NCBI GenBank assembly: GCA_019359505.1
Contig: JAHHHD010000011.1
Coordinates: 1-64,000, forward strand
Length of the DNA stretch: 64,000 nucleotides
Direction: 5' to 3'
Source of the DNA: Drouetiella hepatica Uher 2000/2452
Lineage (GTDB): Bacteria > Cyanobacteriota > Cyanobacteriia > Elainellales > Elainellaceae
Of the stretch, positions 1 to 63,580 are shown piece after piece. The notes below the pieces were generated by a model. That model was given only the letters and a program-made list of their open reading frames with translations, searched no databases and was not told where the DNA came from. The number at the start of each line of letters is the position of its first letter. Position 1 is the stretch's first letter. A program made the position numbers and the translations under genes.

Positions 1-59
1 CCGCCTTTAACGGCTTCGATTGCTTTTTGGCGCAGGTCGTAACTGTAAGGAGCAGGCAT
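1..59 (-). CDS. IS630-type transposase, N-terminal start only (partial)
   Basis: Read on the minus strand from an ATG at 59, the frame gives MPAPYSYDLRQKAIEAVKGG and then leaves the window. This start is characteristic of the helix-turn-helix N-terminus of cyanobacterial IS630/Tc1-like transposases. Only about 20 residues are visible, so I cannot tell whether the gene is intact. It points to an insertion element just outside the left edge. Confidence 0.55.
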   Translation of the reverse strand, partial: MPAPYSYDLRQKAIEAVKG

Positions 60-373
60 AGTCGTATTTGAACGCTTCTCTACCTCTACAATAATGTCCT
101 AACTCGTTCTCGTAGCGCTATATTGCTTACTTAAGAGGATATCTGAAAAGTATCAAATGTTCTGCATTCGCCCCCCAACCCCCAATTCTGGGGGACTTTC
201 GTTCGCTTGCGTGTGCGAAGCACGTAGCCAGTTCCTATTCAAAGTCCCCCAGAATTGGGGGATTTAGGGGGCGGTTCGGGTAGCAAATTACACTTCTCAG
301 ACATCTTCTAAGGGATTTAGACGCACATAGCGCACTTTCTAAATACCCTTTAAGGACTAGCCTAACGCTCAGC
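60..373. other. Intergenic region holding a MITE
   Basis: No coding region is evident here. Most of the stretch is occupied by the MITE-like palindromic element listed separately at 131-311. The remainder carries no motif that I can name. Confidence 0.5.
131..311. repeat. MITE-like palindromic element, family M copy 1
   Basis: The ends form imperfect terminal inverted repeats: aggatatctgaaaag on the left, cttctcagacatcttct on the right. Inside lie GC-rich arms (ccccccaaccccc / gggggatttaggggg) and a palindrome (ccaattctggggg / cccccagaattgg) flanking a core with gcttgcgtgtgcgaagc. A second copy is at 1980-2162, and derived or partial copies lie near 28076 and 32816. There is no coding capacity, so any movement would need a transposase elsewhere. 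Confidence 0.75.
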
Positions 374-715
374 TTAGAGTAGCCGGAAGATGAAGGGATA
401 GCGGAAAGACTGTTCAGGAACGCTGAGGCATTGAACGATCGCCCAAGCCGACAGACCACAATGCACCAAGAACCAAACGCCGTTGGCGAGTCCAAAGGTC
501 AGAAATGAGATGGGAATCAAGAGAAGACTGTAGAGCCAAACATTGAAGTGAAAGTTAATCGCTTCTTTTGCATTTTCTTTGACGACCGGGTCTTCTGTGA
601 CAAACAGAATGGCGATCGGAATTCCGATAGAAATCACCAGCGAACTCAGAAAAATAGAAGCGTGAGAGAGGCTCGATAGCAGCTTACGTTTATCAGAATC
701 GTACAAACCTTCCAT
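374..715 (-). CDS. DUF4870 domain membrane protein
   Basis: This 113-aa protein has hydrophobic segments near residues 20-40, 58-80 and 80-95, so it is an integral membrane protein. The stretch NAKEAINFHFN followed by hydrophobic helices is the hallmark of the DUF4870 (Tic20-like) family, whose function is unknown. The ATG at 715 is preceded by a good Shine-Dalgarno (aggggatt). The gene is alone, between MITE copy 1 and the convergent end of the aldolase gene, and nothing in the context suggests a pathway. Confidence 0.8.
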   Translation of the reverse strand: MEGLYDSDKRKLLSSLSHASIFLSSLVISIGIPIAILFVTEDPVVKENAKEAINFHFNVWLYSLLLIPISFLTFGLANGVWFLVHCGLSAWAIVQCLSVPEQSFRYPFIFRLL

Positions 716-887
716 GGTAATCCCCTTATAGCTGAGCGTTTTAATGCTTCTTGTTAACTGAGTTATTAGCTTATATGGTACTGGGTGCTCAGGGGTTACA
801 GATAGTAAAGTTTACCGAACACCTAGGGCGGCAATCTGCGAGATTTTGGCTGAATCTAAAACCTCTAGGCAACCCTAATGAGCTTTA

Positions 888-1937
888 TCAGCAGAGCGCC
901 GGAGCGATCGCTTCTCTAATATCTTGTACCAGTTGGTCGATTCGATCTTGAGTTGAGTTCCAGGAACACATGAAGCGAGCGCCGCCCACGCCAATGAACG
1001 TGTAGAACAGCCAATTTTTGTCCCTCAGTTGCTGAATGACGGCTTCTGGCAAGGTAACAAACACTGCATTTGCCTCGCGGGGAAACATCAGCTCAACACC
1101 CTCAATTTCTAGCAGCTTTTTCTCCAGATAAGCCGCACAGCGATTGGCATGTCGCGCATTTTTAAGCCATGCGCCAGTTTCCAGCAGACCTAGCCAAGGT
1201 GCGGCAATGAAGCGCATTTTAGAAGCTAACTGACCCGCCTGCTTACAGCGATAGGCAAAGTCTTCAGCCAGGTCTTTTTTGAAAAACAAAATGGCTTCGC
1301 CGATCGCCATGCCGTTTTTTGTGCCGCAGAAGCAGAGCACATCTACTCCGCTCTTCCAAGTGAGTTCAGCAGGGGTGCGGTCTGTAGCAGCAACAGCGTT
1401 GGCAAACCGAGCGCCATCCATATGAATTTTGAGGTCATAATGTTGCGCGATCGATTGAATCGCCAATAGCTCATCGATCGTGTAAATCGTGCCTAGCTCG
1501 GTCGGCTGTGTGATGCTGATGACTTTGGGCTTGGGATAGTGAATGTCGGTGCGTTTGTTAACAATGGAAGCGATCGATTCGGGCGTGAGTTTGCCCTGTT
1601 CCCCTTTTCCCAGCAGCAGTTTAGATCCGTTAGATGCAAATTCTGGTGCGCCGCATTCATCTGTTTCTATGTGCGCCGTCTCATGGCAGATGACGCTGTG
1701 ATAAGACTGACATAAAGCCGCCAGGGACAAGGAATTAGCGGCAGTGCCGTTAAACACAAAAAACACGTCGCAGTCCGTTTCAAACAGTTCTCTAAAATGA
1801 TCGGTCGCTCGCTGTGTCCACTCGTCATTGCCGTAGGCAGGTACATCTCCGATATTTGCCTTCAGCATATACTCAAGAACTTCAGGGCAGATGCCAGAAG
1901 CGTTATCGCTAGAGAATTGCTCAAGGTAATTAGCCAT
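888..1937 (-). CDS. ltaE: Low-specificity L-threonine aldolase
   Basis: This 349-aa PLP enzyme of fold type I cleaves L-threonine or allo-threonine to glycine and acetaldehyde in the cytoplasm. The N-terminal SSDNASGICPEVLEYM, the HMDGARFANA motif with the cofactor-contacting Asp and Arg, and FCGTKNGMA with the Schiff-base lysine are all present. Length is normal for the family. Beta-eliminating lyase relatives share the fold, but HMDGAR plus this length favours threonine aldolase. The gene stands alone; a MITE lies just upstream of the start. Confidence 0.88.
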   Translation of the reverse strand: MANYLEQFSSDNASGICPEVLEYMLKANIGDVPAYGNDEWTQRATDHFRELFETDCDVFFVFNGTAANSLSLAALCQSYHSVICHETAHIETDECGAPEFASNGSKLLLGKGEQGKLTPESIASIVNKRTDIHYPKPKVISITQPTELGTIYTIDELLAIQSIAQHYDLKIHMDGARFANAVAATDRTPAELTWKSGVDVLCFCGTKNGMAIGEAILFFKKDLAEDFAYRCKQAGQLASKMRFIAAPWLGLLETGAWLKNARHANRCAAYLEKKLLEIEGVELMFPREANAVFVTLPEAVIQQLRDKNWLFYTFIGVGGARFMCSWNSTQDRIDQLVQDIREAIAPALC

Positions 1938-1979
1938 AGCTGCGGGAGAAATTTAGGAACGGATTGCGTTGAAAACAGG

Positions 1980-2162
1980 CTAAAAGGATGTCTGAAAAGT
2001 GCAGATTCCTACCCGAACCGCCCCCTAAATCCCCCAATTCTGGGGGGCTTTCGTTCGCTTGCGTGTGCGAAGCACGTAGCCAGTTCTTGTTCAAAGTCCC
2101 CCAGAATTGGGGGGTTGGGGGGCAAATGCAGGACATTTTATACTTTTCAGATAACCTCTAAA
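1980..2162. repeat. MITE-like palindromic element, family M copy 2
   Basis: It has the same length and layout as copy 1, with terminal repeats aggatgtctgaaaag and cttttcagataacctct. Its left arm matches the reverse complement of copy 1's right arm and vice versa. The internal core (cgttcgcttgcgtgtgcgaa), however, lies in the same orientation in both. The loop has therefore flipped relative to the arms. The element fills most of the gap between the aldolase and L,D-transpeptidase genes. Confidence 0.75.
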
Positions 2163-2192
2163 TACGCTTTGAAAGGTGAATTTAAGAACAAC

Positions 2193-2798
2193 TTAGGGAA
2201 CAACTTGTACAGGAGTGCCAACCTTGACTCTTTCAAACAGCTTGACCACATCCTGATCATACATACGAACACATCCATGGGACGCAGGCGTACCCACAGA
2301 CTCAGCATTAGGCGTACCGTGAAAGCCAATAAAATTAGTGCCATCTGTCCAGAATCCAATCCATCTCGATCCTAACGGATTATCAGCTCCAGGGGGCATC
2401 ACCTCGCCCGTAAAAGGGTGTTCCCATGCCGGATTGCGAAGCATTTGGAAGACCTGATAGCTGCCTGTAGGCGTTTCCCAACCCGCCCGTCCAATCGCCA
2501 CCGGGAAACTGGTTTTCACCTGGTCGCGCTCGTAGAGATAGACTCGGCGATCGCTCAATTTAATCACCAGATGCACGTAAGCCAATGGATCGGGCTTGGG
2601 TAAGAAGGTTTCGCTTCTGCCCAGCCCAGGCAGTTCCGGGATTATCAACTGTTGAAGTTGCTCTAACTTTGCCTGAAGGGGAGAGCGTGGAGCCGTAGGC
2701 GAAGCAGCTTCAGCCGCAGGAGCCGCCACTCCAGAGATGATGAGTTGTAGCAATCCCAGAGGCAACAGGACTGCAAAATTCAAAGCCGATCGCTTCAT
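2193..2798 (-). CDS. L,D-transpeptidase (YkuD domain), exported
   Basis: This 201-aa protein starts at the ATG at 2798. That start gives a clean signal peptide (MKRSALNFAVLLPLGLLQL...), which the longer reading does not. The YkuD catalytic domain covers roughly residues 70-200 and ends in HGTPNAESVGTPASHGCVRM, holding the family's conserved His and nucleophilic Cys. Such enzymes form 3-3 crosslinks or attach lipoproteins to peptidoglycan in the periplasm. Function is inferred from the family; substrate is unknown. Confidence 0.88.
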   Translation of the reverse strand: MKRSALNFAVLLPLGLLQLIISGVAAPAAEAASPTAPRSPLQAKLEQLQQLIIPELPGLGRSETFLPKPDPLAYVHLVIKLSDRRVYLYERDQVKTSFPVAIGRAGWETPTGSYQVFQMLRNPAWEHPFTGEVMPPGADNPLGSRWIGFWTDGTNFIGFHGTPNAESVGTPASHGCVRMYDQDVVKLFERVKVGTPVQVVP

Positions 2799-2905
2799 AA
2801 ATTCAGTTTCGAGCCGTAAAATTTTGAACTGTACTAGGCTTTCAGCCACTACCTTAGCTTATTTTCTAGAGACACCTTAGCTTATTTCCCAGAGAGCGAT
2901 CGTAT

Positions 2906-3883
2906 TCATTCTGGCAGATCAGCCTCCAGATTTGCCCTAGCATTTCGCCTCAGCATATCGGGTTTGATCCGGCGCAATGCCGAAGCCGGAAAGCGCTGAT
3001 CCCATTCTGCATCAGATAAGGTGGCGATCGCTTCCATCTCAGGCGCAACGTTCCAGGGATAAGGCTGAAACTCAGCCACATCCGTTTCTTGGGCAAAGCG
3101 CTGATTCCAGGGGCACACGTCCTGACAGATATCACAGCCCGCAACCCAGCCTTGCAGATTGGCAGCGATCGAAGGCGGCAGAGACTCTGCCCGGTTCTCG
3201 ATCGTGTGATAGGCGATGCAGCGATTGGCATCTACGACGAAAGGCTGGACGATCGCCTCGGTCGGGCAAGCCTCCAAGCAGCGGGTGCAGGTGCCGCAGT
3301 GGGGCAGATGAAGGCGATCGATTGTCAGTTGCAAGTTAGTCAAAACCTCGCCCAAAAACACCCAAGAGCCATACTCTCGCGTGATCAAGTTGCTATTTTT
3401 TGCAACCCAGCCAATGCCCGCCCGTTCTGCCCAGACTTTATCTTGAATAGGAGCTGTGTCTGAGCAATAGCGGGCTTCGATCGCGCTGCCCTGTGCCTCT
3501 AGCCAGACCGACAGCGCCTTCAGCTTTTTGTGCATGATGCGGTGGTAATCCCTGCCCCAGCCGTAGCGAGAGATCTTGGCATACTTTCTGGCGTACTTTT
3601 CGCTGTGCAGCGGCTCAGCGGGGCGCTCGTGGGGCGTGTAGTAGTTAAGCGCAACGCAGATGACCGACTGAACGCTGGGTAGGAGCGATCGCACATCTTG
3701 ACGCTTAGGGTTTGCCATCCATGCCATGTCGGCTTGGTAGCCCCGACCTAGCCAGTTTTGGAGCGAATTGTCCCCCTCTCCTGCAACTTCTGCGGCAGCA
3801 ATCCCAACTTTGTGAAATCCCAGTTCCAAGGCTTTTTGTTTAATGCGATCGCTATCTACTAGAGGTTGTGCCATTATCGTCAT
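2906..3883 (-). CDS. queG: Epoxyqueuosine reductase
   Basis: This 325-aa cobalamin- and Fe-S-dependent enzyme makes queuosine from epoxyqueuosine at the tRNA wobble position. Two [4Fe-4S] ligand sets are visible: CGTCTRCLEACP near residues 195-206 and CDICQDVCP near 250-258. The catalytic region SDTAPIQDKVWAERAGIGW is also present. A second in-frame ATG lies at 3874; the first is used here. The gene is transcribed away from an IS605-like end remnant that begins about 12 bp upstream of its start. Confidence 0.92.
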   Translation of the reverse strand: MTIMAQPLVDSDRIKQKALELGFHKVGIAAAEVAGEGDNSLQNWLGRGYQADMAWMANPKRQDVRSLLPSVQSVICVALNYYTPHERPAEPLHSEKYARKYAKISRYGWGRDYHRIMHKKLKALSVWLEAQGSAIEARYCSDTAPIQDKVWAERAGIGWVAKNSNLITREYGSWVFLGEVLTNLQLTIDRLHLPHCGTCTRCLEACPTEAIVQPFVVDANRCIAYHTIENRAESLPPSIAANLQGWVAGCDICQDVCPWNQRFAQETDVAEFQPYPWNVAPEMEAIATLSDAEWDQRFPASALRRIKPDMLRRNARANLEADLPE

Positions 3884-3894
3884 CGGAATCTTTC

Positions 3895-3930
3895 AAGAAG
3901 CCCCGTACCTTCAGGTCGGGGAGGGATAGG
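3895..3930 (+). mobile_element. Remnant of an IS200/IS605 (TnpB-type) right end
   Basis: The string ctttcaagaag followed by a hairpin (ccccgtacctt / aggtcgggg) and gggat resembles the right end of cyanobacterial IS605-family elements. In intact elements this hairpin is also the 3' end of the TnpB guide-RNA scaffold. No tnpA or tnpB is present: the upstream side is the start of queG. It is at best a scar left by excision or decay, recognised by pattern memory only. Confidence 0.4.
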
Positions 3931-4120
3931 AGCTTAGAACGCCGGACGGTCGAAGAAATTGAATTCGATTCATATGGCGACCTTTTATTTGTCCCTGTTA
4001 TTTATACAGTGGCTTTTTATCCGTCAGAGTGCCAAAGTAGGATTACCCCAACACTGGCATTGTCAATTTCATGTGCTGAATGTCTTTAAAAGAGCTTCAT
4101 ATCCAGACTAAGCAGTACTC

Positions 4121-4147
4121 GGTAGTGGTATCTAGGTAATGACTACC
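4121..4147. repeat. 27-bp dispersed repeat, copy 1
   Basis: The sequence ggtagtggtatctaggtaat followed by gactacc has complementary ends (ggtagt / actacc). It recurs with two differences at 63529-63555, also in a gap. The function is unknown; it may be a small hairpin or a protein-binding site. Confidence 0.6.
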
Positions 4148-4181
4148 CCGACTCTAGTACTCAGAGACACGATCGTGCATT

Positions 4182-4460
4182 GCAGAGCTGCAAGCCGCCC
4201 TACCTGCAACGGTATACCTGCAACTTTCCCCTTTCTTCTAGCGTCAATGTCTCCAGACCCATCCCCATCAGTTTTGGCACAAGTGGCGTTGTGTCGCCAA
4301 AAATCAAGTGGTTAGGAGACCTGTCAGTCCCTCAAGGAGCGAAACCCCTACTACTATAGGAGTAGAACGTGTGTATTTACCATTGATAACCCGCTATGAG
4401 CCTCCCTGTAAAGTGTTCTCCTAACTGCAACACTACGGCTCAGGCAAAGCGAATGCCCAC
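4182..4460 (+). ncRNA. Possible structured RNA upstream of the rusA-like gene
   Basis: This gap can form a nested fold. The pair gtctcc (4249-4254) / ggagac (4315-4320) encloses the hairpin ttttggc (4272-4278) / gccaaaa (4296-4302), with inner acaa/ttgt pairs. A ctact/agtag hairpin follows near 4350-4370. I do not recognise tmRNA, RNase P RNA, SRP RNA, 6S RNA or a known riboswitch. The whole 598-bp gap (3884-4481) has no convincing gene. The strand is a guess from the downstream gene. Confidence 0.28.
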
Positions 4461-4481
4461 ACACACTTCCTGCGACCGATC

Positions 4482-4910
4482 ATGCCTCCGGTGCTACCCT
4501 TTGAATTCATTGTGACGGGGAAACCCATTTCCCATCAGACTAAAGATAAAAAGCGTCTGCAAGCCTGGAAAACCCAGGTGCGAGATATGGCGATCGCCTG
4601 TTGGTCATCCTCTCAACCGACAGGCGACTCCGTGCGCGTGGTGATCACTCACTACTATGATGTAATTCCTGGTAATGAGCATGTTGTGCCAGACAGTGAC
4701 AACATTGTGAAACCAGTGCGTGATGCCTTAAACGGCGTCATCTATGTTGACGACTATCAGATCACTGACTTTGTCAGTCGGCGGCGGAGCTTAGATGGCT
4801 CATTTCGGGTCAAAGGAATGTCGCTAGTGCTCGCCAAAGGGTTTTGTAGTGGTGAAGAGTTTCTACACATTCGGATTGAAACGGCTCCCGACCCCACAGC
4901 GCTAGACTAG
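4482..4910 (+). CDS. RusA-family Holliday junction resolvase-like nuclease
   Basis: This 142-aa protein carries the RusA signature: PDSDNIVKPVRDALNGVIYV then DDYQI, with acidic residues placed as in the RusA metal-binding site, plus an N-terminal FIVTGKPISHQ strand. RusA dimers cut four-way DNA junctions; many relatives are of phage origin, but no phage genes are nearby. The gene is followed about 150 bp later by a second small nuclease-like gene that has its own promoter. No clear Shine-Dalgarno precedes the ATG, so the leader may matter. Confidence 0.82.
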   Translation: MPPVLPFEFIVTGKPISHQTKDKKRLQAWKTQVRDMAIACWSSSQPTGDSVRVVITHYYDVIPGNEHVVPDSDNIVKPVRDALNGVIYVDDYQITDFVSRRRSLDGSFRVKGMSLVLAKGFCSGEEFLHIRIETAPDPTALD

Positions 4911-4969
4911 CAGCGCTGGCTCACACCAGCTGAAAATGAGCATGAAAGATTATTAAACAACATAGAAAC

Positions 4970-4997
4970 TTTACTCTTTTCCTAGGGCATCTATAAT
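4970..4997 (+). promoter_or_regulatory. Sigma70-type promoter for the AHJR-like gene
   Basis: TTTACT (4970-4975) and TATAAT (4992-4997) are separated by 16 bp, a near-consensus group 1/2 sigma promoter. It implies that the downstream gene can be transcribed independently of the rusA-like gene. Confidence 0.55.
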
Positions 4998-5064
4998 AGA
5001 GGACTCATGGACTTGACTTTAACGCCCTTTGAGGGATTATAGGAGTAGGCATTTATTTATCCCT

Positions 5065-5376
5065 ATGCGTCACCTGGCAGACCTAAACCCACTCGAACAC
5101 CAACGCCTTCTCAGGATAGCGCGAGAATATCGGCAGCAAGGCTATGCGGTCACGCTGTATCCTTCTTCAGAAGAGTTGCCAGCCGCCCTCGCTAACTGCG
5201 CACTGGATTTAATTGCCACGAGTGCAGCCAAAACCGTAGTTGTGGAAGTGCGCACGCGCGAGAACTTAACCCTCAATGGGGCAGAAGACCTCCGTACGCT
5301 GACTAAACAAGTGCAGCAAGTCCCCGGCTGGGAATTTGAGCTGGTGGTGACCAACCCTCGCAAGCAGGCTAGCTAA
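5065..5376 (+). CDS. AHJR-like (restriction-endonuclease fold) small protein
   Basis: This 103-aa protein starts at the ATG at 5065, with aggagtagg upstream. An in-frame TTG at 5029 would add 12 residues. The helix LEHQRLLRIAREYRQQGY, then LDLIATSAAKTVVVEVRTRE, fits a PD-(D/E)xK core: Asp in LDLI and Glu-x-Arg in VEVRTR. This matches the archaeal Holliday-junction-resolvase-like nucleases seen near some prokaryotic Argonaute and defence loci. The usual Lys of ExK is Arg here, so activity is uncertain. The substrate is unknown. Confidence 0.6.
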   Translation: MRHLADLNPLEHQRLLRIAREYRQQGYAVTLYPSSEELPAALANCALDLIATSAAKTVVVEVRTRENLTLNGAEDLRTLTKQVQQVPGWEFELVVTNPRKQAS

Positions 5377-5653
5377 CAACGTCTCGATTAGCTTAGGCGC
5401 TTTCTAGGAAATAAAATATTCGTAAGGACAGATTAGTCCTCCAGTTTTGGTGACCTTTCTTCCCTTCAACAGAAAGCCGCGTATGACAAAGCAGGGCTTA
5501 GTTTTATTACAAGACGAATACTTGTCCTGACACTATCCACAGACTTCTGGAATCTTACTGCTTAAGTAGGACGTCTTCCTATAAAAATATTTTTAGAATG
5601 TGCGCAAATCCCGTGTTAATCGCACATTAGCCCACAAGAAGGTACCGCTGAGT

Positions 5654-6193
5654 ATGACTAAGCTTGTTGACAAGATCGAACGATCGAACAGTAGCCCTAC
5701 TGATTTGAGAAACCAAGAAGTCATTTATCCAGTCAGAGATTCGCAATACGGGGATTTAGAAACTCCCATTAACTCCTCAGTTTTTGTGCGTAGGTTTGTG
5801 GGTAATCTCTCTGCTTATCGTCCTGGTCTATCCCCTTTGAGGAGAGGTTTGGAAGTTGGCTTAGCGCATGGGTATCTTTTAGTAGGTCCCTTTGCAAAGT
5901 TTAATCCCCTACGTTACACCGAATCAGGGACTCTAGTTGCACTGCTATCTACCCTCGGTCTAGTCCTGATTTCGAGTGTACTTATCGTCCTATACGCAGC
6001 TAGCAATCCTCCAAAACCTCTCTCTGCAACTGCTGCACCTACTCCGCCCGATGCTTTTCAGTCTAAGAAAGGCTGGAATGATTATGCGAAAGGATTTCTT
6101 TTGGGAGGGGCTGTCGGCGCGATCGCTGCTTACTTCATCCTGGCAAACTTTGACGTTTACGGAAATTTTCTGACCCTGATTGGTGCAAAGTAG
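5654..6193 (+). CDS. psaL: Photosystem I subunit XI (PsaL)
   Basis: This 179-aa thylakoid membrane protein mediates PSI trimer or tetramer contacts. The N-terminal LRNQEVIYP...LETPIN, then YRPGLSPLRRGLEVGLAHGY and a C-terminal PPDAFQSKKGW followed by a glycine-rich helix, are typical of PsaL. The ATG at 5654 with agaagg upstream fits the family better than the GTG at 5600. The loop after the first helix reads FAKFNPLRYTE where most PsaL proteins have a LGPLR motif, so this may be a paralogue. No psaI or other PSI genes lie beside it. Confidence 0.9.
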   Translation: MTKLVDKIERSNSSPTDLRNQEVIYPVRDSQYGDLETPINSSVFVRRFVGNLSAYRPGLSPLRRGLEVGLAHGYLLVGPFAKFNPLRYTESGTLVALLSTLGLVLISSVLIVLYAASNPPKPLSATAAPTPPDAFQSKKGWNDYAKGFLLGGAVGAIAAYFILANFDVYGNFLTLIGAK

Positions 6194-6206
6194 ATTGAGC
6201 ATTCAG

Positions 6207-7004
6207 TTACACATTGTCAGCACCTATTCGGGAACAGATTTTATCAAACCCCACGTTTGGGGATGCCATGTTCAAAGATGTTACGTCAATGGCTGCCGCG
6301 CGATCTGCATAGATCATGACATTAGGGTGCAGTTGGAGAACTGATGCTGGACATTGAGGATTAACTTGACCAAGAAAAGCCTCTGAAAAAGCGGTTCTTT
6401 TCTCTGCACCCGTAACCACTAACAAAATTTCTCGCGATGCCAGAATAGGGCTAATTCCCATTGTGATGGCTCGTTCAGGAACGGCTTCTCCTTCTAGAAA
6501 AAAGCGAGCGTTTGCGGCTTGCGTTGAGCGATCGAGAGTCACTACATGCGTCTGGGAAGAGAAGCTCGTTCCGGGTTCGTTGAAGGCAATATGACCATTT
6601 CTACCTATGCCAAGAAGCTGTAGATCAATTCCTCCAGCTTCAGCAATTTTCGCTTCATATTGAACAGCCTCTTGGTCAGGATTCATCGACATTCCATCCG
6701 GCAAATGCGTACGTTGAGGATCAATATCCGTATGGTCAAACAGCAGGCGTTGCATTGTGGCACGATATGAGGCAGGGTGCGCTGGTGCAAGACCTATGTA
6801 CTCATCTAGGTTAAAAGTTGTGGCGAAGCGAAAGCTAAGTCCTGTTCGTCTATGGCGCTCAACCAAGTGGTGATATAAGCTCTCCATGGTGCCACCTGTT
6901 GCGAGACCCAGGACAATATTAGGTGAGATGTAAAGTCGCTCAGCTATTAGATCGGCGGCAGCATAGGCAGCTTCGATCGCAGTGCCATAAACATTTATCT
7001 GCAT
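6207..7004 (-). CDS. nagB: Glucosamine-6-phosphate deaminase
   Basis: This 265-aa cytoplasmic enzyme converts glucosamine 6-phosphate to fructose 6-phosphate and ammonia, linking amino-sugar recycling to glycolysis. It has the phosphate-binding LGLATGGTMESLY, the catalytic TFNLDEYIGL with its Asp, and LLGIGRNGHIAFNEPG with catalytic His and Glu. Length matches the family. It converges on psaL with only 13 bp between the stops. No nagA is visible nearby. Confidence 0.93.
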   Translation of the reverse strand: MQINVYGTAIEAAYAAADLIAERLYISPNIVLGLATGGTMESLYHHLVERHRRTGLSFRFATTFNLDEYIGLAPAHPASYRATMQRLLFDHTDIDPQRTHLPDGMSMNPDQEAVQYEAKIAEAGGIDLQLLGIGRNGHIAFNEPGTSFSSQTHVVTLDRSTQAANARFFLEGEAVPERAITMGISPILASREILLVVTGAEKRTAFSEAFLGQVNPQCPASVLQLHPNVMIYADRAAAIDVTSLNMASPNVGFDKICSRIGADNV

Positions 7005-7240
7005 ACCTGGTAAACATTTTAGATTGACGTAGATTCCCTTTTAACTTACGGCGACATCCATCCTAGGATAGACTTCTTCATCCATGATTTTGTAGATAAT
7101 GGACGAAGCTTTACCTGAGATTATCTCCTGCTCAAGCCTCTTGCGAGCTATCTTTGGATAGAAAATTTAGGATAGTCATCAAGATGGCATTAGATCTCAG
7201 GTTTTGAGCTGCCTGAAACTTTTCTGCAAAGGATCAAGTG

Positions 7241-10200
7241 ATGTCAACTGCTCAAGCCGTTCTCGATACCGATAGCCTCGATCTCAAACAGTTGCTCAAG
7301 ACGCTCACAGAAGTCAAAAAGGGGAACTTCTCTGCTCGAATGTCAACCGAGCAAACTGGGCTGATGGGTAAAGTCGCCAGCACTCTGAACGACATCATTG
7401 AGATGAATGAGCGGCTGACCAATGAACTAGAGCATGTAGGCACGATCGTCGGTAAAGAGGGCAAAATTGACGAGCGGGCATCCTTGGGCAGCGCCAAAGG
7501 TTCGTGGAAAGCCTGTGTCACCTCTGTGAATACGATGATCACAGATTTGGTGCAGCCTACAGCCGAGACAGCAAGAGTGATTCGGGCGGTGGCGAATGGC
7601 GACTTATCCCAGACGATCGCTTCGGGCATCGGCGGCAGGCCCTTAAAGGGCGAGTTTCTGCAAACGGCAACGATCGTCAATACTATGGTCGATCAGCTCA
7701 ATTCCTTTGCCTCTGAGGTGACGCGGGTTGCCCGTGAGGTGGGAACTGAAGGCAAGCTGGGGGTGCAGGCAGAGGTTCCAGGAGTAGCAGGCACCTGGAA
7801 GGACTTGACCGACAGCGTGAATCTGATGGCGGGAAACCTGACGGCGCAGGTGCGGAATATTGCCGAAGTGACGACAGCTGTTGCCAACGGCGATCTCTCC
7901 AAGAAAATCACGGTAGATGTGAAAGGTGAGATTCTGGAGCTAAAAAACACGATCAACATCATGGTCGATCAGCTCAACTCTTTTGCCTCCGAGGTGACGC
8001 GGGTTGCCCGTGAGGTGGGAACTGAGGGCAAGCTGGGGGTGCAGGCAGAGGTGTCGGGGGTTGCGGGTACCTGGAAAGATTTGACGGATAATGTGAACTC
8101 AATGGCGGGCAACCTGACGGGACAGGTGCGGAACATTGCAGAAGTGGCAACAGCGATCGCCAATGGCGACCTCTCTAAAAAAATTACGGTGGACGTGAAG
8201 GGCGAGATCCTGGAGCTGAAGAACACGATCAACATCATGGTCGATCAGCTCAACTCTTTTGCCTCCGAGGTGACGCGGGTTGCCCGTGAGGTGGGTTCTG
8301 AGGGCAAGCTGGGCGGTCAGGCGCAAGTTCCTGGCGTTGCGGGTACCTGGAAAGATCTGACGGATAATGTGAACTCGATGGCAGGGAACCTGACAGGACA
8401 GGTGCGAAACATCGCCGAAGTGGCAACGGCGATCGCCAATGGCGACCTCTCCAAAAAAATCACGGTTCAGGTTAAAGGTGAAATTCTGGAGCTGAAGAAC
8501 ACGATCAACATCATGGTGGATCAGCTCAGCTCCTTTGCCTCTGAGGTGACGCGGGTTGCCCGTGAGGTGGGTTCTGAGGGAAAGCTGGGGGTGCAAGCCG
8601 ATGTCCGAGGGGTTGCCGGAACCTGGAAAGATTTGACCGACTCGGTCAACTTTATGGCGGGTAGTTTGACGGCACAGGTGCGAAATATTGCCGAAGTGAC
8701 GACAGCGGTGGCAAACGGCGATCTCTCTAAAAAAATCACGGTAGACGTAAAGGGCGAGATCCTAGAGCTGAAGAACACGATTAACACAATGGTAGATCAG
8801 CTCAACTCCTTTGCCTCTGAGGTGACGCGAGTTGCCCGTGAGGTGGGTTCTGAGGGCAAGCTGGGGGTGCAGGCCTACGTGCGAGGCGTGGGTGGCACCT
8901 GGAAAGACCTGACGGATAACGTGAATTCGATGGCGGGGAACCTGACAGCACAGGTGCGGAACATTGCTGAAGTGGCAACAGCGATCGCCAATGGTAACCT
9001 GTCTAAGAAAATCACGGTGGATGTCAAAGGCGAAATCCTCGATTTGAAGAATACCATTAATACAATGGTGGATCAGCTCAGCTCCTTTGCCTCTGAGGTG
9101 ACGCGGGTTGCCCGTGAGGTGGGCACGGAAGGAAAGCTGGGAGGACAGGCACAGGTGACAGGGGTTGCAGGCACCTGGAAAGATTTGACGGATAACGTGA
9201 ATTCGATGGCGGGAAACCTGACGGCACAGGTGCGGGGGATTGCAAAAGTTGTGACCGCCGTTGCTAATGGGGACTTGAAGCGGAAACTGATGCTGGATGC
9301 AAAAGGGGAAATTGAAACCCTAGCAGATACGATCAATGAGATGATCGACACGCTGGCAACTTTTGCCGATCAGGTGACGACTGTTGCCCGTGAAGTGGGC
9401 ATTGAAGGGAAGCTAGGCGGACAGGCAAAGGTGCCGGGAGCCGCAGGCACCTGGCGCGATCTGACCGATAATGTGAATGAACTAGCGGCGAACTTAACCA
9501 CACAGGTGAGAGCGATTGCTGAAGTGGCAACGGCAGTGACCAAGGGTGACTTGACCCGATCGATCGCCGTGGCTGCGGAGGGAGAAGTCGCCATCCTCAA
9601 GGACAATATCAACCAAATGATTGCCAACCTGCGAGAAACAACGCAGAAAAATACAGAGCAAGATTGGCTGAAAACTAACCTGGCAAAATTTACGCGGATG
9701 TTGCAGGGTCAACGCGATTTAGAAACGGTCTCTAAGCTGATTTTGTCGGAACTCGCGCCTTTAGTTTCGGCTCAGCATGGCGTGTTCTATCTCATGGAAG
9801 GTAGTGACCATACTTACTTGAAGCTGCTCACTACTTACGCCTACCGTGAGCGCAAGCATCTAGCAAACCGTTTTCAGTTGGGCGAAGGGTTAGTTGGGCA
9901 ATGTGCCTTGGAGAAAGAGCGAATTCTGCTGACGGAAGTGCCTGATAACTACATCACCATTAGCTCTGGTTTAGGGGAATCAACCCCTAGAAATGTTGTC
10001 GTTTTACCTGTTCTGTTTGAGGGTCAAGTCACGGCTGTAGTCGAGCTGGCATCCTTTAATCGGTTTAACGAAATTCACCTGACGTTCTTCGATCAGTTGA
10101 CTGAGAGCATTGCAATCGTCCTGAATACGATCGCTGCCAGTATGAGAACAGAGGAATTGCTCAAACAATCTCAATCTCTGGCAGAAGAACTGCAAACTCA

Positions 10201-12502
10201 GCAGAAAGAACTCACCGAAACCAACCAGCGCTTAGAGCAACAGGCGCAATCGCTGCGGGCTTCGGAGGAGCTGCTAAAGAATCAGCAAGAGCAACTTCAG
10301 CAAACCAACGATGATTTGGAGGAAAAAGCCGAGCTTTTGGTGTTGCAAAATCGGGAAGTTGAGCGGAAAAACAGCGAAATTGAGCAAGCTCGTCAGTCTT
10401 TGGAGGAAAAAGCGAAGCAGCTCGCCATGACCTCAAAATACAAGTCGGAATTTCTGGCGAATATGTCCCACGAGCTGCGGACTCCGCTGAATAGCCTGCT
10501 GATTTTGGCGAGATTGTTGGGAGATAACAGCGCTGAAAACTTGACCAGTAAGCAGGTTGAGTATGCCCGCACTATTTACTCGTCTGGCAACGATCTGCTG
10601 TCGCTGATCAACGACATTCTGGATTTGGCTAAAATCGAGTCAGGTACGATGTCAGTCAATCTTGATCAGACTTTGTTTACCGAACTTCAGGTTCATCTCG
10701 ATCGCACCTTCCGCCAAACTGCGATCGATCGCAATTTAGATTTCTTCATTCAGCTTGATGAGCATCTGCCTTGCACGCTTTATACAGATTCCAAGCGTCT
10801 TCAGCAGGTGCTTAAAAATCTTCTTTCTAATGCCTTTAAGTTTACAGAGCAGGGTCAAGTTAGTCTACACATAGGTTTGGCAACCCAGGGCTGGAGTCCC
10901 ACCCATGAATCGCTCAATCGAGCCAGCTCAGTCATTGCTTTTGCCGTGCGCGATACCGGAATTGGCATAGCTTCTGACAAGCAGCGGGTGATTTTTGAAG
11001 CCTTTCAACAGGCTGATGGTACGACCTCGCGTAAGTATGGCGGCACAGGCTTAGGTTTGTCCATTAGCCGCGAAATCGCTCAGCTTCTGGGAGGTGAGAT
11101 TCATCTGGTGAGCAGGGTGAAGCAAGGCAGCACGTTTACCCTTTATCTCCCTCAAACCTATGAGGCAGTTGAAAGTCGAGAAGCAACTGATCTGCAAAGA
11201 AGAGAACGGCAAATGAGGTGGGGGGCGATCGATGCGCTTCCACCCGCTTTTCTACCTTCCTCGGATTCCTTCGTGTCCCCTGAGAGAATAGACGATCGGG
11301 AGACTTTACAGCCCAGCGATCGCGTTTTGCTGATTGTCGAAGATGATCTCAAGTTTGCCCGCATTCTACTGGATATGGCTCGACAGCAGGGCTTCAAGGG
11401 ACTCATTGCTGCCCGCAGCGATCTAGGACTAGAGATGGTGCGAGAGTTCAAACCTACCGCAATCATGCTAGATATTCGATTGCCCGGAATGGACGGCTGG
11501 ACGGTGCTAGATCGCCTGAAGCATGACCCCAATACCCGTGATATTCCGGTTCATATTATGTCGGTAGAAGAAGGACAGCAGCGTAGTTTACAGATGGGTG
11601 CGATCGCCTTTTTACAAAAACCTATTAGTCGTGAAACGCTTTTGGATACCTTGGCAAATATCAAAGAGTTTGTCGAGCGATCGGTAAAAAATTTGCTGGT
11701 GGTGGAAGACGACGAGATTCAACGCCAGAGCCTTGTAAATCTGCTCAGCGGCAGCAATATTACCGTCACGGCAGCGGAGACGGGAGCCACAGCGCTAGAA
11801 ACATTGAAGTCTGCACAGTTCGACTGCATTGTAGTGGATTTGATGCTGCCAGATATGACTGGAGGAGAACTGATTGAGCAGATCAAGCAAGATGATTCCC
11901 TTATAGATTTGCCCATCATCATCTATACCGGGAAGGAGTTGGTATCTGAAGAAGAAAACAGCCTGCGACAACTTTCTGACATCATTATTCTCAAAGATGC
12001 TCAATCACCTGAACGGCTCTTGGCTGAAACTGCGTTATTTCTGAATCAAGTCCAGGCAAACTTGTTAGAGCAACACCCTCAGCAACAGCTAGAACAGCCT
12101 CAAAGCAACGCGATTCTCATCGATAAGAAAGTTTTAATTGTCGATGATGATGTTCGCAACATTTTTGCCTTGACTAGCCTGTTAGAGCAATACCAGATGC
12201 AGGTGATCTATGCGGAAAACGGGCGAGACGGCATGACGCAGCTTCAAAATAATCTTGACACTGCTGTGGTTCTAATGGATTTAATGATGCCCGATATGGA
12301 TGGTTATGAAACTATGCAAACCATTCGGCAGATTGAGCAATTTCGATCGCTTCCCATGATTGCGCTGACGGCAAAAGCTATGAGGGGCGATCGAGAAAAG
12401 TGTATTGAAGCAGGAGCCTCTGACTACATCACCAAACCTGTCGATGTTGAACAGCTTTTATCCCTACTGCGACTCTATTTGTATCAGCCTCCGCATGAGT
12501 GA
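7241..12502 (+). CDS. Soluble poly-HAMP hybrid histidine kinase with three receivers
   Basis: This 1753-aa protein has no transmembrane segment. Order: a long HAMP array (about residues 10-800, with seven near-identical 92-residue units marked by [13 protein letters not shown]), GAF (about 806-973), coiled coil (975-1065), HisKA with [11 protein letters not shown], HATPase with DTGIGI and GTGLGLSIS (to about 1303), then three receivers (about 1362-1480, 1485-1600, 1630-1750), each with a phosphorylatable Asp. It resembles fungal Nik1-type group III kinases. The ATG at 7241 has aagga upstream. The following kinase and regulator genes are its likely partners. Confidence 0.93.
7690..9640 (+). 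repeat. 276-bp tandem repeats encoding HAMP units
   Basis: Seven consecutive units of about 276 bp within the kinase gene share long identical stretches, for example gaggtgacgcgggttgcccg. The seventh unit is the most diverged. Nucleotide identity extends to synonymous positions, suggesting recent duplication or gene conversion. Assembly collapse or expansion is possible here. Confidence 0.85.
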
Positions 12503-63156: not shown

Positions 63157-63580
63157 GAAAGCACACTCAATCCCACACCACTCCAAAAATGGCTGTTGCC
63201 TCGTCAGTCTGGCGATCGCGGTCAGACTTGCGGAGGCTATTAGCCTAGCTAACGGTAACGCAACAGATTCGAGTCTGCATCACTGCTGTTGCTCCTCAAC
63301 GCTGTCAATTTCATCTCATCGACTTCATCTCATCAGCTTTACCCAAATTAATAAATCGCAAGACTCATTAATTGCACGAAAATATATAGACTTTCTAGCT
63401 TAATTCAGCCTCATTAAGAATCTTCAGTCAAAAACTTACGGTATCAAAAGCGTCAGGATGTCCGAAATTTGAAAGGAGGGTCGCGATCGCCTATTGAGCA
63501 GATGCTGATCCGTCTGCCCCGTCTGCTGGGTAGTGGTATTTAGGTAAGGACTACCGTCTGCCGATATGTCTAGGAGCGGG
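63157..63580. other. Intergenic region between tandem paralogues
   Basis: This is the gap upstream of the repeat protein and downstream of its paralogue. It contains the 27-bp dispersed repeat at 63529-63555, and there is no gene. The phrase ttcatctcatcgacttcatc then tcatcag near 63310 is a small internal duplication. Confidence 0.4.
63529..63555. repeat. 27-bp dispersed repeat, copy 2
   Basis: ggtagtggtatttaggtaag followed by gactacc matches 4121-4147 with two substitutions. The flanks differ, so the repeat unit is short. Confidence 0.6.

Follow-up and report, generated by a model that had tools for sequence, protein, structure and literature searches.

Introduction

Work on Holliday junction resolvases has mostly treated them as enzymes of repair or of phages. 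Two such families contain the closest described relatives of the proteins considered here, which are encoded by a pair of small adjacent genes in a 64,000-nucleotide stretch of the cyanobacterium Drouetiella hepatica Uher 2000/2452 (hereafter the window, meaning that whole stretch). The first family is RusA (PF05866), the Holliday junction resolvase of phages and prophages, to which the first gene product belongs according to Pfam and PHROG, with four catalytic positions shared; however the window gene sits among chromosomal genes and forms a two-gene unit with an AHJR-like gene. The second comprises Hjc and the AHJR-like restriction endonucleases (PF18743, PF01870; the abbreviation AHJR is in use in PMC1189080), which the second gene product resembles by Pfam and perhaps in fold, Hjc structures such as 1gef being among its best, though middling, matches. 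It differs from Hjc in adjoining RusA and in carrying an Arg in place of the catalytic Lys, as do 45/45 sequences of its own type (Form B, below).

Further likenesses appear when relatives are considered. Table 1 of Anantharaman et al. 2013 (PMC3710099) records that HEPN-M is occasionally fused to an archaeal-Holliday-resolvase-like restriction endonuclease, and the second gene of a longer version of the pair (Form A) has this same architecture, RX4H motif included, although that paper does not mention RusA and Form B of the window has no HEPN domain. The Form A HEPN domain has the fold of HepT from the MntA-HepT toxin-antitoxin system (6m6u), but its neighbour gene encodes RusA instead of an MNT nucleotidyltransferase. 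COG4636, a proliferating PD-(D/E)XK family of cyanobacteria (PMC551604), is also PD-(D/E)XK-related, moves between cyanobacteria and has an altered active site; it is nevertheless another family, of high copy number and with no RusA partner in the description given there. A characterised cyanobacterial resolvase is SynRuvC (PMC11063404). No paper was found in the open-access literature under 'AHJR-like', 'REase_AHJR' or 'PF18743', and none on the pair under RusA with HEPN, cyanobacteria, antiphage or operon, an absence that carries little weight. The RusA-AHJR pair looks like an undescribed paired system.

In the present study we followed up an original prediction, made from the letters of the window alone, of two Holliday-junction-type nucleases forming a possible junction-processing, anti-mobile-element or DNA-repair module. 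Our tentative reading of the sequences is that the window encodes an active RusA and a co-inherited, probably non-catalytic AHJR partner, derived from a RusA + AHJR-HEPN unit. The tie of RusA to an Hjc-type protein, and in Form A to an RNase-type domain, suggests that a bacterial conflict system could use branched DNA as its signal. The unit is small (two genes, approximately 0.74 kb of coding sequence), and nature has supplied a before-and-after comparison in its two forms, in which the same partner is found with and without the catalytic residue and the HEPN domain.

Identity of the two genes

The pair and the DNA associated with it comprise the following features.

4218 to 4481, plus strand: cassette leader without a recognised gene, shared with Tildeniella nuda
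4482 to 4910, plus strand: predicted RusA-type structure-specific endonuclease, 142 amino acids; PF05866, 42.8 bits (cut-off 22.8), E 9.5e-11
4911 to 5064, plus strand: intergenic gap of 154 bp, its 3' half 85% identical over 73 bp to that of Tildeniella
5065 to 5376, plus strand: AHJR-like (Hjc-type) protein of the short Form B, 103 amino acids from ATG; PF18743, 89.1 bits (cut-off 26.1), E 2.1e-25

Both open reading frames (ORFs), their order on the plus strand and their Pfam families agree with what had been read from the letters, and both matches lie far over their cut-offs. RusA also matches phrog_140 (E 3.2e-13). NCBIfam gave no match for RusA and merely weak ones, YraN-type and TnsA-like, for AHJR, while a sequence search against solved structures matched no RusA-type structure. 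HEPN gave no match in the window AHJR, whose ORF stops at 5376, right behind the AHJR domain.

Conserved pairing

The pairing is strongly conserved. In a survey of 291 genomes of the same class, RusA relatives gave 59 matches in 51 genomes, with a maximum of three per genome, and AHJR relatives 76 matches in 59 genomes; 54 of the 59 RusA matches are immediately followed on their strand by an AHJR gene. Among the five that are not, the RusA of G261 lies at a contig end, and another contig of that genome bears AHJR close to its end. Both genes occur together in 50 genomes against 10.3 expected (hypergeometric P ~1e-45, kinship ignored). A wider scan with a RusA profile, covering 84,980 named species at one genome per species, yielded 151 relatives, and in the best 80 of these 151, which were taken for analysis, AHJR directly follows RusA in 79; the remaining contig stops right after RusA. 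The distances of the two proteins correlate (r 0.89 over 76 pairs; 0.69 within Form B and 0.92 within Form A), and none of 1000 permutations reached these values, overall or within each form. Such conserved pairing, which had been proposed as a check, supports a functional RusA-AHJR module; the two genes are neighbours in other genomes too, contrary to what would have refuted the original prediction. We found no third gene conserved with the pair across lineages.

Several loci depart from this arrangement. AHJR-HEPN-length copies without an intact RusA directly upstream were seen at L235-L243, L251 and L254 (family f24 and one f32 genome); L242 retains a 28-residue RusA remnant upstream, and the four upstream genes that were scanned differ, three being DUF2442, DUF29 and Mrr_cat, while the fourth matched nothing. 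In family f13, second RusA copies have D-x-E instead of D-x-D, and two of them (L252 and L253, the places of L122 and L126) stand without AHJR, which suggests divergence after duplication.

Two forms of the pair

The pair exists in two forms. In Form A (35 of the 80 loci) the AHJR protein has approximately 224 amino acids, a site that is mostly E-x-K and a C-terminal HEPN domain, and the RusA and AHJR-HEPN genes touch or overlap in 33 of the 35 loci. In Form B (44 loci and the window) the protein has approximately 100-132 amino acids, no HEPN domain and an E-x-R or more decayed site; the gene gaps reach 637 bp, and four AHJR starts, taken from the longest ORF, overlap RusA. A RusA tree, built without AHJR characters and rooted at its midpoint, contains one branch that splits 31 Form A from 45 Form B sequences, with support of 99/97 and presence in 100% of 200 bootstrap trees.

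Form A occurs in five phyla, its hosts being cyanobacteria, Bacteroidota, and metagenome-assembled genomes (MAGs) of Chromatiales (Pseudomonadota), Verrucomicrobiia and Poribacteria; a sixth phylum, Bacillota, has two imperfect Form A loci, one short (L199) and one split (L204). Form B was found in cyanobacteria only, in this sample. Because Form A, unlike Form B, is spread over several phyla, we infer that Form A is ancestral and that the direction was from A to B. Both forms were seen together within each of three named cyanobacterial assemblies, Leptolyngbya ES-bin-22, SM2_5_2 and PMM_0083 (L153/L219, L168/L209 and L158/L198).

The C-terminal domain of Form A appears to be HEPN on three kinds of evidence. 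The Pfam matches are weak and below gathering (e.g. 26.3 against 28.4 bits); the RX4H motif is present in 32 of the 35 loci and invariant in the 26 that were aligned (26/26); and in a predicted model of AHJR-HEPN, with a predicted local distance difference test (pLDDT) score of 87, residues 106-225 match HEPN structures. Many HEPN entries match, among them 2hsb (Z 13.1, root mean square deviation (rmsd) 2.8, 116 residues aligned) and HepT 6m6u (Z 12.4, rmsd 2.4, 108 aligned); with Foldseek the E value was only 4e-3.

Active sites and predicted folds

The residues expected of a RusA enzyme are intact. The window protein has D71, D73, K77 and D91, which correspond to the four catalytic positions of E. 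coli RusA (D70/D72/K76/D91). Over the 45 Form B rows D71, K77 and D91 are present in all 45, and position 73 is D in 42 and E in 3; in Form A the catalytic positions are kept in 30-31 of 31 rows. These 76-row counts leave out L199, L204, L209 and L227 (truncated genes) and L174. The sequences argue for an active RusA, as had been supposed.

The second nuclease of the original prediction is doubtful in the form found in the window. Its site reads D48 ... E61-V-R63 and does not match the D...(D/E)-x-K motif. In Form B R63 is found in 45/45 rows, D48 in 40 and E61 in 25, while in the 31 rows of Form A K occupies position 63 in 27, D48 is kept in 30 and E61 in 24. A metal-binding site that partly decays while one Arg is fixed is as expected for a protein kept to bind, not to cut.

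The predicted model of the window AHJR (pLDDT 86) has Hjc among its best fold matches, with 1gef at Z 7.6 (rmsd 2.9, 81 residues aligned), although R2 retrotransposon endonucleases score as high and values of Z below 8 are common by chance. Foldseek returned Hjc 2eo0 at E 2.3e-3.

Horizontal transfer and selection

The copy in Tildeniella nuda is informative about how the pair travels. In the window the pair lies between these two genes.

2906 to 3883, minus strand: queG, left neighbour of the pair
5657 to 6190: psaL, right neighbour of the pair, which marks the window as cyanobacterial

When positions 1-12000 of the window were compared with 16 kb around the copy of Tildeniella nuda, which belongs to another GTDB family (f16, against f1 for the window), the match was confined to 4218-5374 and the flanking genes differed. 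The RusA proteins are 94% identical and the QueG proteins 69%; therefore the cassette has been transferred, and these comparisons indicate that the pair moves horizontally as a cassette of approximately 1.16 kb. In the same genus, G077 (98% complete) and G279 (72% complete) have no match to either gene, and G279 has only 493 bp between queG and psaL, where the window has 1773 bp. Because that gap is too diverged to align with the window, exact cassette borders relative to G279 are undefined.

The possibility that the cassette is a transposon was considered and set aside, with no terminal inverted repeats at 4218/5374 and no transposase seen. A selfish pair of genes whose DNA cutting drives its own spread, in the manner of COG4636 or of a homing nuclease, would account for a minimal cassette transferred horizontally with no transposase inside, and COG4636 itself is a precedent in the same phylum (PMC551604). 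We regard this as very improbable, given the low copy number (59 RusA matches in 51 genomes, at most three in each), an AHJR protein conserved despite the loss of its catalytic Lys, a synteny that is stable in part of the cyanobacteria and the lack of visible terminal repeats at the cassette ends. An origin of the clade in phages, prophages or plasmids was likewise set aside. Phage relatives amounted to 7 of 50,697 records (identities of 25-28% among those listed, with no record scored as spanning 80% of the query), plasmid relatives to 8 of 72,556, all matches of both kinds being below 60% identity, and among viral contigs there were 2 matches, both short and partial.

Ratios of nonsynonymous to synonymous divergence (dN/dS) are below 1 in both forms, as under purifying selection. 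Between the window and Tildeniella the ratio (NG86) is 0.03 for RusA and 0.085 for AHJR; it ranges over seven Form B pairs from 0.019 to 0.209 (RusA) and from 0.017 to 0.435 (AHJR), and over the five Form A pairs whose dS was usable (that of a sixth was not) from 0.075 to 0.354 and from 0.151 to 0.423, respectively. On these alignments the RusA of Form B looks more constrained than the others.

Neighbouring genes and alternative explanations

A RuvC match is present in 50 of the 51 RusA-bearing genomes, the one without it being 77% complete; therefore RusA is an addition and not a replacement, and the idea that it replaces RuvC was rejected. Form B has a stable neighbourhood in a mostly heterocystous set of cyanobacteria, with a DUF4330 protein at 16 loci and an M48 peptidase at 15, which look like inherited synteny. 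These observations bear on a first alternative, in which Form B is a housekeeping accessory of recombination and repair that never had a conflict role, RusA resolving junctions beside RuvC and AHJR serving as an auxiliary binder. The coexistence with RuvC, the housekeeping neighbourhood and the purifying selection in the tested Form B pairs all agree with it. We nonetheless hold it to be doubtful, as the distribution is patchy (51/291 genomes) and extends to neither same-genus genome searched (G077, G279), the cassette was transferred horizontally between the window lineage and Tildeniella, and the HEPN domain of Form A would be needless for a repair role.

The flanks of Form A suggest a link to conflict systems. 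PADLOC models match in the flanks of at least 4 of 8 non-cyanobacterial loci, in which 11 of 57 proteins were resolved singly for PADLOC: an OLD/GajA-like protein together with PDC-M34B at L202, an OLD-like protein at L222, PDC-M63B at L204 and a PNP-type effector near L196. In the Microcoleus group an MmeI-like restriction-modification gene accompanies Form A at four loci; that of L203 was recognised with Pfam and the remaining three through BLAST clustering. These defence-type neighbours are suggestive, the counts having no random-region control behind them. A link to conflict systems is accordingly plausible for Form A, with its HEPN catalytic motif and its OLD/GajA-like, PADLOC-type and MmeI-like neighbours. 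The Argonaute connection that had been raised for AHJR-like nucleases found no counterpart: Piwi (PF02171) has no match in the window's own genome.

The same neighbours could be explained if the pair, in either form, were a toxin-antitoxin or abortive-infection unit, one nuclease acting as toxin and the other keeping it in check, with RusA as the toxic member in Form B. A large number of HEPN proteins act as RNase toxins, and PMC3710099 records the HEPN-M/restriction endonuclease fusion; the touching or overlapping Form A genes (33/35) and the OLD/GajA-like, PDC-M34B, PDC-M63B and PNP-effector neighbours would also fit. Such a unit is unlikely in our view: no PADLOC model matches either protein, the flanks of Form B yield single scattered matches only, and the low dN/dS of Form B is unlike that of a fast-evolving arms race.

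Proposed mechanism

We propose that the region of approximately 4218-5376 would be a compact, horizontally moving two-gene cassette, whose first product would be an active RusA-type enzyme cutting branched DNA and whose second would be a small Hjc-type protein that has long travelled with RusA and, from its E-x-R site and the loss of HEPN, is most likely no longer a nuclease. In the likeliest way of working, the AHJR-like protein would bind RusA, the same branched DNA or both, and would guide or restrain RusA, which would do the cutting. Form A would probably have served in conflict or as a toxin-type system, its nucleases, one of them RNA-directed, being triggered by branched DNA from an invader or from a damaged chromosome. 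Form B would then be a cyanobacterial derivative, stripped down and partly domesticated, that works beside RuvC without replacing it, on intermediates of recombination or replication.

Several observations weigh against this proposal. The flanks of the cyanobacterial loci, both Form B (45 proteins, those of the window included) and Form A (43), hold merely scattered defence-type matches, and PADLOC, searched with E up to 1, has no family for the RusA or AHJR of the window. The two genes do not always go together: 21 of the 76 AHJR matches have no adjoining RusA match, some of them being contig breaks or distant copies, and G012 and G060 carry a RusA locus without AHJR; therefore the pair is not obligate. 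In Form A the Lys is replaced by T in 2 rows, I in 1 and N in 1, and Glu61 is missing in 7/31, so decay of the site is not confined to Form B; the pattern is looser still in Bacillota, with EVK in the short AHJR of Paenibacillus L199 and EVR in the split AHJR of Neobacillus L204. Some weak activity of the E-x-R site is conceivable, as is the use of a different residue. In the fold comparison the window AHJR obtained middling scores, two mitoribosomal proteins outranking Hjc, and the dN/dS pairs are few, low dS inflating some of the ratios.

A bolder version of our proposal can be formulated. RusA + AHJR-HEPN might constitute an undescribed immune or abortive-infection system of at least five phyla, in which the junction nuclease and the Hjc-like domain read branched DNA, such as intermediates of phage replication or recombination, and so switch on the HEPN RNase; Form B would have discarded the RNase, its Hjc domain remaining as a dead, Arg-marked sensor for RusA. 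We consider this rather unlikely as it stands.

Upstream and intergenic sequences

Approximately 600 bp without a recognised gene separate queG from RusA, in agreement with the original prediction, which placed there a structured leader and the scar of an IS605 element. Neither of these withstood closer analysis. For the leader, the folding of 4182-4481 gave z +0.90, with 162 of 200 dinucleotide shuffles at least as stable, and four shorter stretches (three of the window, one of Tildeniella) gave z from -1.11 to +1.56 against shuffles. Rfam has no match in the leader region, and no second match to the leader was found in the same genome. Among the 80 related loci the leader is shared with Tildeniella nuda (L150) alone, beyond a 16-bp chance match elsewhere; in this comparison (n=2, a number at which covariation counts have no power) the left arms of the inverted repeats are altered without compensation, e.g. 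TTAGGAGA...TCTCCTAA is not kept complementary. A structured leader was rejected on these grounds: folding no better than in shuffles, the silence of Rfam and repeat arms left unpaired in Tildeniella.

The leader is nevertheless conserved between the two lineages, with 83% identity over 4335-4481 (120/145) and 67% over 4218-4334 (78/116). As the former segment keeps 83% while the synonymous sites of RusA have reached a dS of approximately 1 (NG86; 0.68 by YN00), it is probably functional as a promoter or 5' untranslated region.

The supposed TnpB/IS605 scar was rejected because PF07282 (TnpB C-terminal), the one TnpB or TnpA model searched, has no match in the window's own genome, and the hairpin at 3896-3924 is not repeated: it occurs once in that genome and in 0/35 relatives at zero mismatches. 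Beside it, the 29 bp of 3938-3966 are 93% identical to the first codons of a gene family that is present in three further copies in the genome (L143-L145, two near contig ends); by this likeness they are probably a gene remnant next to the cassette instead of an IS605 scar.

Short elements of possible regulatory interest are the following.

4355 to 4365, plus strand: 11-bp motif TATAGGAGTAG, copy 1, upstream of RusA
4970 to 4997, plus strand: promoter-like TTTACT-N16-TATAAT, -10 conserved in Tildeniella, -35 not
5013 to 5040, plus strand: promoter-like TTGACT-N16-GATTAT before the AHJR gene, both hexamers conserved in Tildeniella
5038 to 5048, plus strand: 11-bp motif TATAGGAGTAG, copy 2, before the AHJR gene

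The separate promoter that had been assigned to the second gene exists as written at 4970-4997, and its -10 hexamer is conserved; its -35 is not, and sites of this kind are at chance level (two found, 1.9 expected in shuffles). The motif TATAGGAGTAG stands before both genes, and none of 200 shuffles shares 11 bp or more in this way, but Tildeniella has no such exact repeat of the 11-mer. From its two positions it is a possible shared regulatory element of both genes.

Two minor observations concern the surroundings. The PsaL at 5657-6190 does not reach the NCBIfam equivalog cut-offs, and the genome encodes another PsaL elsewhere (C82, 48% identical); the protein of the window is a PsaL paralogue. 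A 26-bp dispersed repeat, GTAGTGGTATTTAGGTAAGGACTACC, whose ends GTAGT/ACTAC are inverted, lies at 4122-4147 and at 63530-63555; while a reversed control gave 0 occurrences, the genome contains 14 with up to two mismatches.

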